A stretch of DNA of 64,000 nucleotides from contig NZ_MTQO01000053.1 in assembly GCF_001984155.1 (NCBI RefSeq), positions 496,001 through 560,000 on the forward strand, given 5' to 3'. Below, in pieces: positions 54,150-56,873 of the stretch. Every line of letters starts with the position of its first letter. Position 1 is the stretch's first letter. A program made the translations under genes and the position numbers. This DNA is from Actinosynnema sp. ALI-1.44. GTDB lineage: Bacteria; Actinomycetota; Actinomycetes; Mycobacteriales; Pseudonocardiaceae. The notes below the pieces were generated by a model, which was given only the letters and a program-made list of their open reading frames with translations, was not told the origin of the DNA and searched no databases.

Positions 54150-54449
54150 TCAGGCGACGGCTACGGCCACCTCGTGCACGCCGGGCCCGTCGGCCTGGAT
54201 CGACGCCTCACCGTTGCCCGTGCGGTGCAGCGCGCGCACCGTCCACGAGCCGGGCGCGGCGTAGAACCGGAACTCGCCGTTCGGCGAGGACACGACCTCA
54301 CCGGTGAAGTCCCCGTTGCCGTCGAGCAGGCGCACGAACGCGCCGCCGACCGGGGCCTCGCCGGACACGACCCGTCCGGACAGGACAGTCTGACCCTCCG
54401 CGCCCGTGATCGGCGCGGCCTGGTCGGGTGCTCCGCAGCTGCTGCTCAC
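54150..54449 (-). CDS. DUF1416 protein (SseC-like)
   Basis: This protein of about 99 residues matches DUF1416, known in mycobacteria as SseC, always beside a CysA-type sulfurtransferase. It shows an N-terminal SSSCGAPDQ with one Cys and a beta-sandwich core VLSGRVVSGEAPVGGAFVRLLD and APGSWTVRAL. Function is unknown. GTG 54449 has AAGGAG five bases upstream and is preferred; GTG 54455 would overlap the preceding stop by four bases. Confidence 0.88.
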   Translation of the reverse strand: MSSSCGAPDQAAPITGAEGQTVLSGRVVSGEAPVGGAFVRLLDGNGDFTGEVVSSPNGEFRFYAAPGSWTVRALHRTGNGEASIQADGPGVHEVAVAVA

Positions 54450-54451
54450 AT

Positions 54452-55294
54452 TCACTCCTTGCCAGTGCCGGTCTCGACCGGGACGCCGACCAGCGACCCG
54501 TACTCGGTCCACGAACCGTCGTAGTTCTTGACGTCCTCGTAGCCCAGCAGCTCGTGCAGGGCGAACCAGGTGTGCGAGGAACGCTCACCGATGCGGCAGT
54601 ACGCGATGGTCGCCTTGGACTCGTCGATCCCGGCTTCCTTGTAGATCTCGCGCAGCTCGTCGTCGGACTTGAAGGTGCCGTCCTCGTTCGCGGCCTTGGC
54701 CCACGGCACGTTGATCGCGCTCGGCACGTGGCCGGGGCGCTGCGCGGACTCCTGCGGCAGGTGTGCCGGGGCCAGCAGCTTGCCGCTGAACTCGTCCGGC
54801 GACCGCACGTCGACCAGGTTCTTGGTGTTGATCGCGTCGACGACCTCGTCGCGGAACGCCCGCAGCTTGAGGTTCTGCTCCTGCGCGGAGAAGTTCGTCT
54901 CGTCGCGCTTGACCACGTCCTGCGACAGCGGGCGGCCGTCGAGCTCCCACTTCTTGCGGCCACCGTCGAGCAGCTTCACCGAGTCGTGGCCGTACAGCTT
55001 GAAGTACCAGTACGCGTACGCGGCGAACCAGTTGTTGTTGCCGCCGTAGAGGATCACCAGGTCGTCGTTGGCGACACCCTTGGCGGACAACAGCTTCTCG
55101 AAGCCGGCGCGGTCGACGAAGTCGCGGCGGACCGGGTCCTGCAGCTCGTTCTTCCAGTCGATCTTGACAGCACCCGGGATGTGCCCGGTCTCGTATGCGC
55201 TGGTGTCCTCGTCGACCTCGACGAACACCACCCCCGGCGCGTCGAGGTTGTCCTCTGCCCACTGGGCCGACACCAGCACGTTTTCGCGGCTCAT
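54452..55294 (-). CDS. Thiosulfate sulfurtransferase (double rhodanese, CysA/SseA-like)
   Basis: This 280-residue enzyme with two rhodanese domains would move sulfane sulfur from thiosulfate to a thiophilic acceptor. The C-terminal domain holds the active loop CRIGERSS with Cys233. The N-terminal domain is the inactive copy with YGGNNNWFAAY. ATG 55294 is the conserved start; the frame is open upstream through DUF4395 but that is a shadow. It is the middle gene of the operon that begins with a cysteine-containing leader peptide. Confidence 0.93.
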   Translation of the reverse strand: MSRENVLVSAQWAEDNLDAPGVVFVEVDEDTSAYETGHIPGAVKIDWKNELQDPVRRDFVDRAGFEKLLSAKGVANDDLVILYGGNNNWFAAYAYWYFKLYGHDSVKLLDGGRKKWELDGRPLSQDVVKRDETNFSAQEQNLKLRAFRDEVVDAINTKNLVDVRSPDEFSGKLLAPAHLPQESAQRPGHVPSAINVPWAKAANEDGTFKSDDELREIYKEAGIDESKATIAYCRIGERSSHTWFALHELLGYEDVKNYDGSWTEYGSLVGVPVETGTGKE

Positions 55295-55335: not shown

Positions 55336-55779
55336 TCAGGCCGGTTTCTGCCGGCCGCCGGACGGGGTGAGCCTGCGCAGCAGCAGGTAGGTCTCGCAGC
55401 CGAGGCAGAACGCGAAGGCCGCGTTGAGGAACGCGGCGGCCAGCGCGAACGCGGTGGCGATCAGACCGACCGTGCTGCCGCCGAGAGCGAACGCGATCGC
55501 ACCGACAGCGGCGAACGCGAAACCGACACCCTGCGCGAACCGCAGCGGCGCGGCGTCTTCCCGCTCGTCGGTCGGCTGCAGGCGCGGCGCGACGAGGTAC
55601 TTGTAGACAAGTGAATAAGGTGCGTACTTCAACCCGGCGAACGCGCCGACGGCGAAGACGACAGCCTGTGCGGCCAGCAGCGGCCACCACTGGGTGGCGA
55701 GCACGACGGCAAGGACGACGGTCGTGATCCAGGCGGAGAGCCTGGGACCGCGGGGATCGACGGGTGGGCCTGCGGACAT
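55336..55779 (-). CDS. DUF4395 membrane protein
   Basis: This 147-residue protein has about four hydrophobic helices and the DUF4395 pattern (DPRGPRLSA start, AFAGLKYAPYSLVYKYLVAPRL, FCLGCETYLLLRR end). It is a conserved neighbour of sulfurtransferase genes in Actinobacteria. Function is unknown; the CLGC pair might handle sulfur or redox chemistry. ATG 55779 has AGGAGG upstream. Confidence 0.88.
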   Translation of the reverse strand: MSAGPPVDPRGPRLSAWITTVVLAVVLATQWWPLLAAQAVVFAVGAFAGLKYAPYSLVYKYLVAPRLQPTDEREDAAPLRFAQGVGFAFAAVGAIAFALGGSTVGLIATAFALAAAFLNAAFAFCLGCETYLLLRRLTPSGGRQKPA

Positions 55780-55845
55780 GTGTCCTCCTGACCTGCGGGC
55801 AAGCGTGGGAGTGCGCCGCGTGCGATGGCGCGCGAAATCGCCTGG

Positions 55846-55923
55846 TCAGAGGGTCGCTTGACAGAGACTGGAGTCCACGCGGCAGTAGTCGACCGCGCGG
55901 CGCCTCGTCAGCAACGTATACAC
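55846..55923 (-). CDS. Ms5788A-family leader peptide (25 residues)
   Basis: A GTG-started frame encodes a 25-residue peptide with LLTRRRAVDYCRV and a second Cys in SSLCQ, fitting the LLTKRRAVDLCRV pattern of Ms5788A-type leader peptides. In mycobacteria such peptides precede the same sulfur genes and attenuate them according to cysteine supply. TACTCT (55931-55936) ends seven bases before the GTG, so the transcript should start at the first codon. The stop lies 66 bases before the DUF4395 start. Confidence 0.8.
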   Translation of the reverse strand: MYTLLTRRRAVDYCRVDSSLCQATL

Positions 55924-55930
55924 GGCGGCG

Positions 55931-55936
55931 AGAGTA
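55931..55936 (-). promoter_or_regulatory. -10 element (TACTCT) of the sulfur operon
   Basis: TACTCT on the minus strand is seven bases upstream of the leader-peptide GTG, the expected distance from a -10 hexamer to the transcription start. The -35 is not clear. Confidence 0.55.
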
Positions 55937-56057
55937 CCTCGATCTCACATTGCAGAGCACCACCGTCCATCCACTGGGACACACGATCGAGCGAGGGTCC
56001 CCGGACGCGGGTCAGAGCGTGATCACCCTCGCCCGCCGCGCAACGCTGATCGGGGTG

Positions 56058-56873
56058 CTACCTGTTCGAGGACGTGACGAGCGCGTCGAACTCGCGGTCC
56101 GGCAGTGACCTGTTGAGCTCCAGGAGCTTGTCGGCGAGCCAGCCGACCGCGTAGCGGGTCTCCGGGTGGTCGGACTCGGCGGCCTGCCGGATGACCTCAG
56201 CGACCACGCCGGGATCGGAGCCCTCGCTCAGGCCCGTCTCGCTGCGCTTGGCCATGGCCTCGGCCATGTCCCGGTACGGGCCGTTGCCGGACATCTCGCG
56301 CAGTTGCGCGGCCGTCTGGTCCTCGAACTCGGTCCTGATGATCCCCGGCTGGATGATCACGACGTCGATGCCGAACGGCCGGACCTCCATCCGGAGCGTG
56401 TCGGAGAAGGCCTCGAGCGCGTGCTTGGCGGCGTAGTACCAGGAACCGAGCGGCAACGCGATCTCGCCGCCGATCGACGAGACGTTGACGATCGTGCCGG
56501 AGCGCTGTGCGCGCATGGCGGGCAGGACGAGCTGGACCAGCCTGGCCGGTGCGATGAGGTTGACCTCGAGCTGGTCGCGCGCCAGGTCCAGCGGCACGTC
56601 CTCGACAGCGCCGTGCATGACGGTGCCTGCGTTGTTGACGAGGACGTCGATCCGTTGTTGTTCGTCGAGAACGATGGCGACTACCCGGTCGAGGTCCTCC
56701 GGGTTGCGTGCGTCCATCGCCAGCACGTGGCCACCCGCGGCGCGGATGTCGTCCATCTTGTGCACGCGCCGCGCGGCGCCGTACACCGTGTGGCCTGCGC
56801 GCAGGAGTTCCAACGCGGTGGCGCGGCCGATGCCCGACGACGCCCCAGTGACCAGGCACACCTTGGCTGCCAT
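56058..56873 (-). CDS. Short-chain dehydrogenase/reductase
   Basis: This 271-residue classical SDR has the cofactor loop GASSGIG (10-16), NNAG, catalytic Ser in NVSSIGG and YYAAK (YxxxK). It reduces or oxidises a carbonyl/alcohol with NAD(P); the substrate is unknown. ATG 56873 has AAAGGGGAT upstream. A MarR-type gene is divergent, separated by 148 bases, and may regulate it. Confidence 0.92.
   Translation of the reverse strand: MAAKVCLVTGASSGIGRATALELLRAGHTVYGAARRVHKMDDIRAAGGHVLAMDARNPEDLDRVVAIVLDEQQRIDVLVNNAGTVMHGAVEDVPLDLARDQLEVNLIAPARLVQLVLPAMRAQRSGTIVNVSSIGGEIALPLGSWYYAAKHALEAFSDTLRMEVRPFGIDVVIIQPGIIRTEFEDQTAAQLREMSGNGPYRDMAEAMAKRSETGLSEGSDPGVVAEVIRQAAESDHPETRYAVGWLADKLLELNRSLPDREFDALVTSSNR

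Follow-up and report, generated by a model that had tools for sequence, protein, structure and literature searches.

Does a reading frame of 25 codons ahead of a sulfurtransferase operon in Actinosynnema sp. ALI-1.44 encode a cysteine-sensing leader peptide of the kind named Ms5788A in Mycobacterium smegmatis, and how would a frame with two Cys codons and no poly-Cys run sense cysteine? These questions were addressed in a window of 64,000 nucleotides (the whole stretch of DNA that was analysed) from a host genome of 11.7 Mb in 54 contigs. The reading that we consider probable from the sequence comparisons described below is that the frame is a leaderless upstream ORF (uORF) that attenuates translation of the DUF4395-sulfurtransferase-DUF1416 operon in response to cysteine, with a UGU codon as its sensor. 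Coordinates are collected in Table 1.

Table 1. Features of the leader and its operon (positions in the window)
Feature	Position	Strand	Basis
Leader ORF, 25 codons from GTG plus TGA stop, MYTLLTRRRAVDYCRVDSSLCQATL	55846..55923	-	ORF reading, profile search, relatives
TACTCT, -10 element of putative leaderless promoter	55931..55936	-	Sequence; TAnnnT spacing in relatives
Cys14 codon TGC, first Cys	55882..55884	-	Cys in 50/55 leaders, TGC in 50/50
Cys21 codon TGT, proposed sensor	55861..55863	-	Cys in 55/55 leaders, TGT in 54
CCTCTGACC, proposed anti-Shine-Dalgarno arm over leader stop	55844..55852	-	Folds, duplex energy, permutation
GGTCAGGAGG, Shine-Dalgarno region of DUF4395 gene, pairs with arm	55784..55793	-	Folds, duplex energy
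DUF4395 gene, first after leader, gap 66 nt	55336..55779	-	PF14340, E 9.7e-46
Rhodanese-type sulfurtransferase gene	54452..55294	-	PF00581, E 2.4e-35
DUF1416 gene, start GTG 54449 by eye	54150..54449	-	PF07210, E 1.3e-37 on frame 54153-54452

The leader frame and its surroundings

According to the ORF list, the frame runs on the minus strand from a GTG start at 55921-55923 to a TGA stop at 55846-55848, and it carries the second Cys codon that the original prediction had reported. The range first assigned to it (55846 to 55936) takes in this ORF, but a reading begun at the first base of that range falls in a different frame. The hexamer TACTCT was found where it had been placed, seven nucleotides (CGCCGCC) ahead of the GTG, and the downstream genes that had been named, for DUF4395, a sulfurtransferase and DUF1416, were identified by their Pfam matches (Table 1). 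A gene for a THAP4-like heme-binding protein lies farther downstream, past DUF1416. A scan with the sigma-70 consensus returned no full promoter and no good -35 element in 55600-56100, and no Rfam match up to E 1 was obtained in 55500-56100. No intrinsic terminator was found between the leader and DUF4395 in 55600-56100, so that the locus does not fit a classical transcription attenuator with an intrinsic terminator.

The spacing of the -10 hexamer is shared with relatives of the leader, being 7 nt before the start in 45 of the 54 tabulated leaders, 6 nt in five, 8 nt in two and 10 nt in two. Among the matches listed in a class-wide set, TAnnnT lies 6-8 nt before an in-frame start in 119/119 stretches. 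It was found 5-9 nt before the start in 164/171 A-type frames vs 15/50 unique H-type leaders (those among L210-L299), and since so few of the latter have the element, many H-type leaders may not be leaderless. In a survey of Streptomyces lividans leaderless genes, part of the text (PMC8079986) gives TAnnnT for 93.4% and spacers of 5-7 nt for 88.7%, values against which the spacing of the present leader is typical; the leader table in that part lists no cysteine leader.

Family membership, relatives and synteny

Profile searches were performed with two NCBIfam models. MYTLLTRRRAVDYCRVDSSLCQATL scored 33.7 bits (E 2.1e-8) against NF042933 (leader_Ms5788A), under the curated cut-off of 45 bits, and 22.1 bits (E 8.3e-5) against NF042934 (cis_reg_atten), under the cut-off of 27 bits. 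The leader lies directly upstream of the DUF4395/sulfurtransferase/DUF1416 operon, the position that NF042933 describes, and its two Cys are non-adjacent, where that family has a poly-Cys C-terminus. Because the score is under the cut-off and the poly-Cys run is absent, the peptide is not a formal member of the Ms5788A family. Judged by homology and synteny it is the Ms5788A counterpart, so that the pattern originally recognized holds as homology. Like Ms5788A, it is a short ORF of a kind described as leaderless, with the core LTxRRAVDLCRV and the same sulfurtransferase operon. It differs in NF042933 score and in having two Cys in place of the poly-Cys run; its proposed anti-Shine-Dalgarno over the stop and its single invariant UGU may be further differences. 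Passages of Shell et al. 2015 (PMC4633059) place a leaderless uORF ahead of cysA2/Msmeg_5788 and report that this M. smegmatis locus is occupied by ribosomes, and contiguous Cys codons in the M. smegmatis leader are mentioned in part of PMC9031893.

With NF042933, a match at E<=1 was obtained in 59 genomes of a set of 60 that contained the own genome, 6 of them over the cut-off; matches under the cut-off also occurred in 6/14 unrelated control genomes. The best match per genome was kept for the own genome and 54 others, the five genomes where the match was weak or absent being left out, and a readable leader is present in each of these 55 loci (54 tabulated plus L022). Because the loci were picked as best leader matches, the presence of a leader is by construction; synteny is the independent evidence, and in 55/55 loci the gene directly after the leader is a DUF4395 or sulfurtransferase homolog. 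The stop codon is TGA in 51/54 tabulated leaders. From the core onward, two Cys occur in 34/55 leaders and three in 16/55. The absence of a poly-Cys run was correctly observed at the outset, and the suggestion that the mechanism may differ for that reason is refined by these counts, two to three Cys being the usual form.

Short ORFs are common in GC-rich DNA, and 113 of at least 20 aa overlap 10 kb here, which is what would favor an ORF arisen by chance, or else a leaderless uORF acting constitutively and merely delivering ribosomes downstream. Against this stand the identical position before the same operon in 55/55 loci, the conserved -10 spacing and the TGT codon signal described below, and we regard such an origin as highly improbable.

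A sulfurtransferase search of the five remaining genomes gave one close homolog (70%, locus L350), two distant ones (31-33%) and, in two genomes, none at E<=1e-20, so that a leader is present in 55/56 genomes where such an operon was seen. In L350 (genome G040) no leader was found upstream of DUF4395 despite the close sulfurtransferase; there, the GTG at which DUF4395 apparently starts has TACGAT 7 nt ahead of it, which would fit a DUF4395 gene that has become leaderless in its own right.

Two wider sets were compiled. A class-wide set was obtained with a DNA pattern for the core, neutral as to TGT or TGC, and comprises at least 119 stretches of genome records, one of which (L145) is unreadable, the stretch end cutting the leader, leaving 118 readable loci. 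Among the matches listed, every title (80 titles) names Actinomycetes, and a sulfurtransferase or DUF4395 gene lies downstream in 112/119 stretches. The NF042934 model matched at E<=0.05 in 70 of 79 genomes of the class, over the cut-off in 56, with 0/14 controls matching, and 90 loci, part of the matches listed, were used (79 pattern-parsed and 11 read separately). The present peptide shares with these 'putative leader peptides' a core with RR, VD, R and C. The model differs in spanning leaders of various operons: its loci include leaders with RRAVD before the same operon as here and leaders with RRHVD/RLHVD before other genes, many of these leaders having one Cys, and by eye from translations some of the genes downstream of the RRHVD/RLHVD leaders are NirA-like or CysK-like. 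The sets overlap in part, L009 and L128, L014 and L092, and L006 and L212 each appearing to be the same place.

The own genome gave 17 other NF042934 matches (E<=10), none over the cut-off, of which three were examined. L074 (contig C47, leader at locus 1483-1566), MSAVVPVLLVARRHVDFLRVNSDLCRR, is likely a second leader of the superfamily: it lies 113 nt before a NirA/sulfite-reductase-like gene and matches NF042936 (leader_Ms4527A) with E 1.8e-5, under the cut-off. A leader of nirA/Msmeg_4527 is described in part of PMC4633059, and the position of L074 is alike; unlike the present leader, L074 has the H-type core RRHVD, TGC as its sensor Cys codon and no TAnnnT 5-9 nt before the start. L075 (C41:337358), MSAGVALVRRLHVDLAKQASSL*, shows the superfamily core, lacks Cys and is followed by a gene for a putative secreted protein. 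L081, situated within a long frame, was rejected as a leader.

A further conserved, partly palindromic motif, TYCYA-N4-7-TGRAC, was noted upstream of the leader (55965-55979, minus strand). It occurs in 24/55 leaders (200 shuffles: mean 0.05, maximum 1/55), in relatives at approximately -56 to -42 from the start of the leader and often followed by CTCCC...GGGA, and looks like a putative operator for a regulator.

The UGU codon

The last Cys has a fixed place in the core RRxVDxxRVxSxxC and is encoded by TGT in 54/55 relatives and by TGC in one. Among the matches listed, the core Cys is TGT in 118/118 readable class-wide loci and in 90/90 NF042934 loci, the latter including paralogous leaders of other operons. 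Over the three partly overlapping sets this amounts to 262/263 leader loci, with L074 counted apart; counted as unique leaders, TGT is found in 169/170 A-type and 49/50 H-type. The exceptions are L044, which has extra Cys codons beside the sensor, and L074 of the own genome. L006 and L210 are poly-Cys leaders whose six-codon runs contain four and five TGT codons, respectively. The first Cys, by comparison, is present in 50/55 relatives, as TGC in all 50, and is TGC in 114 of 118 class-wide loci among the matches listed. All other Cys codons of the same leaders are TGC in 242/264 cases and TGT in 22/264 (identical leader DNA removed; one codon derives from the chance frame L191, and the eleven separately read NF042934 loci are excluded). 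In the downstream genes of 160 loci, TGC accounts for 435/469 Cys codons and TGT for 34/469. Identical leader DNA was counted once in the 264-Cys and 171-frame counts, though not in the set-wise TGT counts. A chance match, L163 (frame RRRLD...), was excluded from the 171-frame analysis onward, and L191 (WRAVDPARQ...), a chance frame among the 171 'A-type', is still contained in the inputs for duplex energy and downstream codons.

Elsewhere in the core, synonymous sites vary, with four Val codons, five Arg codons including AGG, and Ser as both AGC and TCN; there was therefore ample time for change, and what is conserved in most of the core is the amino acid. Since the second Cys is invariant (55/55) and the first is not (50/55), the poly-Cys run looks like a special case, with one UGU as the conserved sensor. 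UGU is read by tRNA-Cys with anticodon GCA through G-U wobble. The own genome gave 63 tRNA matches, all in ARAGORN-scanned loci, with tRNA-Cys at two places, both with the anticodon GCA, so the UGU of the leader would be read by wobble. If UGU is decoded more slowly or weakly, the ribosome would pass the upstream UGC and wait at UGU when Cys-tRNA is short. No title or abstract in the literature found reports the invariance of UGU, the full text of Canestrari et al. 2020 lying outside that search, and the invariance may be unreported.

The same conservation can be read as nascent-peptide arrest, in which RRxVDxxRVxS in the exit tunnel would stall the ribosome on cysteine or another sulfur metabolite and UGU would only set the site. 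Conservation at the amino-acid level (Arg as CGN and AGG, Ser as AGC and TCN, four Val codons) is consistent with this, as are the end of conservation at the sensor codon, with both ends of the peptide variable, and the core common to leaders of unrelated operons. The invariance of the codon itself, however, indicates decoding. Moreover, because peptide models or a pattern derived from the peptide were used to collect the loci, conserved peptides are favored; the gene-based search covered the five remaining genomes, one of which has the operon with no leader. Arrest by the peptide may contribute, and we consider it possible although rather doubtful.

TGT might also be kept for RNA pairing of its third base or for binding of a factor. 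A base-level constraint would explain the near-perfect invariance, and U3 is often predicted to be paired (mean 0.76), but it has no consistent partner, the best position averaging 0.18 (171 frames), and the same codon is found in A-type and H-type leaders despite their different flanks and operons. This explanation seems unlikely.

Shine-Dalgarno pairing and the proposed mechanism

Pairing between the end of the leader and the Shine-Dalgarno region of the first gene was examined using folds, duplex energies and permutation of loci. In the present locus, CCUCUGACC pairs with GGUCAGGAGG in both the MFE and the centroid structure, and the whole fold is not more stable than shuffled sequences (z -0.38). 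When 22-nt segments of the leader were paired with the Shine-Dalgarno region in 84 DUF4395-first loci where the sensor is followed by at most five codons, the duplex energy peaked at the stop, -16.1 vs -10.7 to -13.0 kcal/mol elsewhere; ten DUF4395-first leaders with longer tails gave no clear peak. The distance from sensor to stop is 3-4 codons in 144/171 frames of a Streptomyces-rich set and in 37/55 relatives, where it was counted from the last Cys. Cognate pairs were compared with permuted pairs, a control that keeps the relatedness among loci. In 43 relatives the cognate mean was -17.2 vs -15.6, a difference reached in 7/20000 permutations (24/20000 with one per own genus), and in 81 dereplicated DUF4395-first loci it was -15.4 vs -13.9 (0/20000). 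A perfect helix of at least 6 pairs is present in 29/81 loci vs a permuted mean of 19.2, with 33/20000 permutations reaching 29. There are 20 distinct helices, including GGCTCCTGAAC/GTTCAGGAGCC in L253 and CTGACAG/CTGTCAG in L033, and in L036 the stop is shifted and TCTGACC retained.

Among 46 dereplicated sulfurtransferase-first operons, many of them from Streptomyces, cognate pairing was no better than permuted (5214/20000), and helices numbered 11 vs 7.4 permuted (1166/20000). Shine-Dalgarno sequestration is thus unsupported there as a family-wide trait, and the proposed anti-Shine-Dalgarno arm is supported in DUF4395-first operons only. A second duplex peak was seen in the sulfurtransferase-first operons, for segments that cover the Leu-Thr codons CTGAC and begin 36-52 nt ahead of UGU, and it may reflect relatedness in this Streptomyces-rich set.

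The failure of the pairing test in sulfurtransferase-first operons bears on a different outcome, transcription attenuation or Rho-dependent control, in which a stalled or moving ribosome on the leader would decide whether RNA polymerase ends before DUF4395 and not the access to the Shine-Dalgarno. Part of Seliverstov et al. 2005 (PMC1262725) predicts Cys leaders in Mycobacterium with no terminators and suggests Rho for them because the terminator hairpin is absent, as it likewise is at the present locus. The pairing signal in DUF4395-first operons argues against such control, which we judge improbable for the leader studied here.

From the ORF, its conservation, synteny, -10 spacing, codon bias, complementarity, the cognate preference in DUF4395-first operons and the tRNA-Cys with GCA only, all seen directly, we infer a course of translation attenuation in which start of transcription, translation, stalling, regulation by cysteine and wobble would each play a part. 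Briefly, transcription would start at the GTG, and the leader would be translated by ribosomes that load directly onto the exposed 5' end. With ample Cys-tRNA, the ribosome would reach the stop and leave, CCUCUGACC would pair with the DUF4395 Shine-Dalgarno GGUCAGGAGG, and translation would be low. With Cys-tRNA scarce, the ribosome would pause once the UGU of the second Cys had entered the A site; its front would then lie approximately at the start of the anti-Shine-Dalgarno arm (11-14 nt downstream), and the Shine-Dalgarno would be opened. The anti-Shine-Dalgarno of the window lies 14 nt, and that of 29 DUF4395-first loci 6-22 nt, past the first base of UGU. Masking by a ribosome at UGU raised the mean Shine-Dalgarno accessibility from 0.25 to 0.29 (79 loci) and that of the window from 0.22 to 0.26, and masks at other positions did likewise. 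This weak masking effect counts against the attenuator, as do the TGC at the sensor place of L074, the NCBIfam scores under the cut-offs and the want of a good -35.

Several known systems are comparable. In part of PMC13236596, a uORF region is described as pairing with and hiding the Shine-Dalgarno and a stalled uORF ribosome as opening the site, and the occlusion proposed for the present leader is in this respect like that attributed to Ms5788A in the portions of the literature consulted. Six cysteine-rich regulatory sORFs are predicted for M. tuberculosis in a section of PMC9094748. The uORFC-8-2 candidate, a cysS attenuator of Rhodobacterales, is alike in that its uORF Cys codons are proposed to sense Cys-tRNA, and unlike in its tandem Cys, mostly UGC, its U run like an intrinsic terminator and its different bacteria, as far as the relevant passages of PMC8632094 describe it. 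The LEU element before leuA in Actinobacteria differs in its leucine codons and pseudoknot, according to part of PMC1262725.

We tentatively extend this to a class-wide actinobacterial superfamily, a generalization that is plausible though less secure than the reading of the single locus. In such a superfamily, cysteine would be sensed by one wobble-read UGU, with the ribosome primed by the 13-residue RRxVDxxRVxSxx ending there and UGC not working in its place; the mycobacterial poly-Cys run would have evolved from this sensor at a later stage, and the stop in DUF4395-first operons would form part of the anti-Shine-Dalgarno. What would be added here to the known leader is a sensor consisting of a single UGU, together with an anti-Shine-Dalgarno to which the stop codon of the leader belongs. 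A mycobacterial control element would be extended across the class Actinomycetes, with a sharp, testable synonymous-codon feature. Should UGU prove indispensable and UGC fail to replace it, the attenuator would owe its sensitivity to codon-anticodon wobble and possibly also to the nascent peptide.
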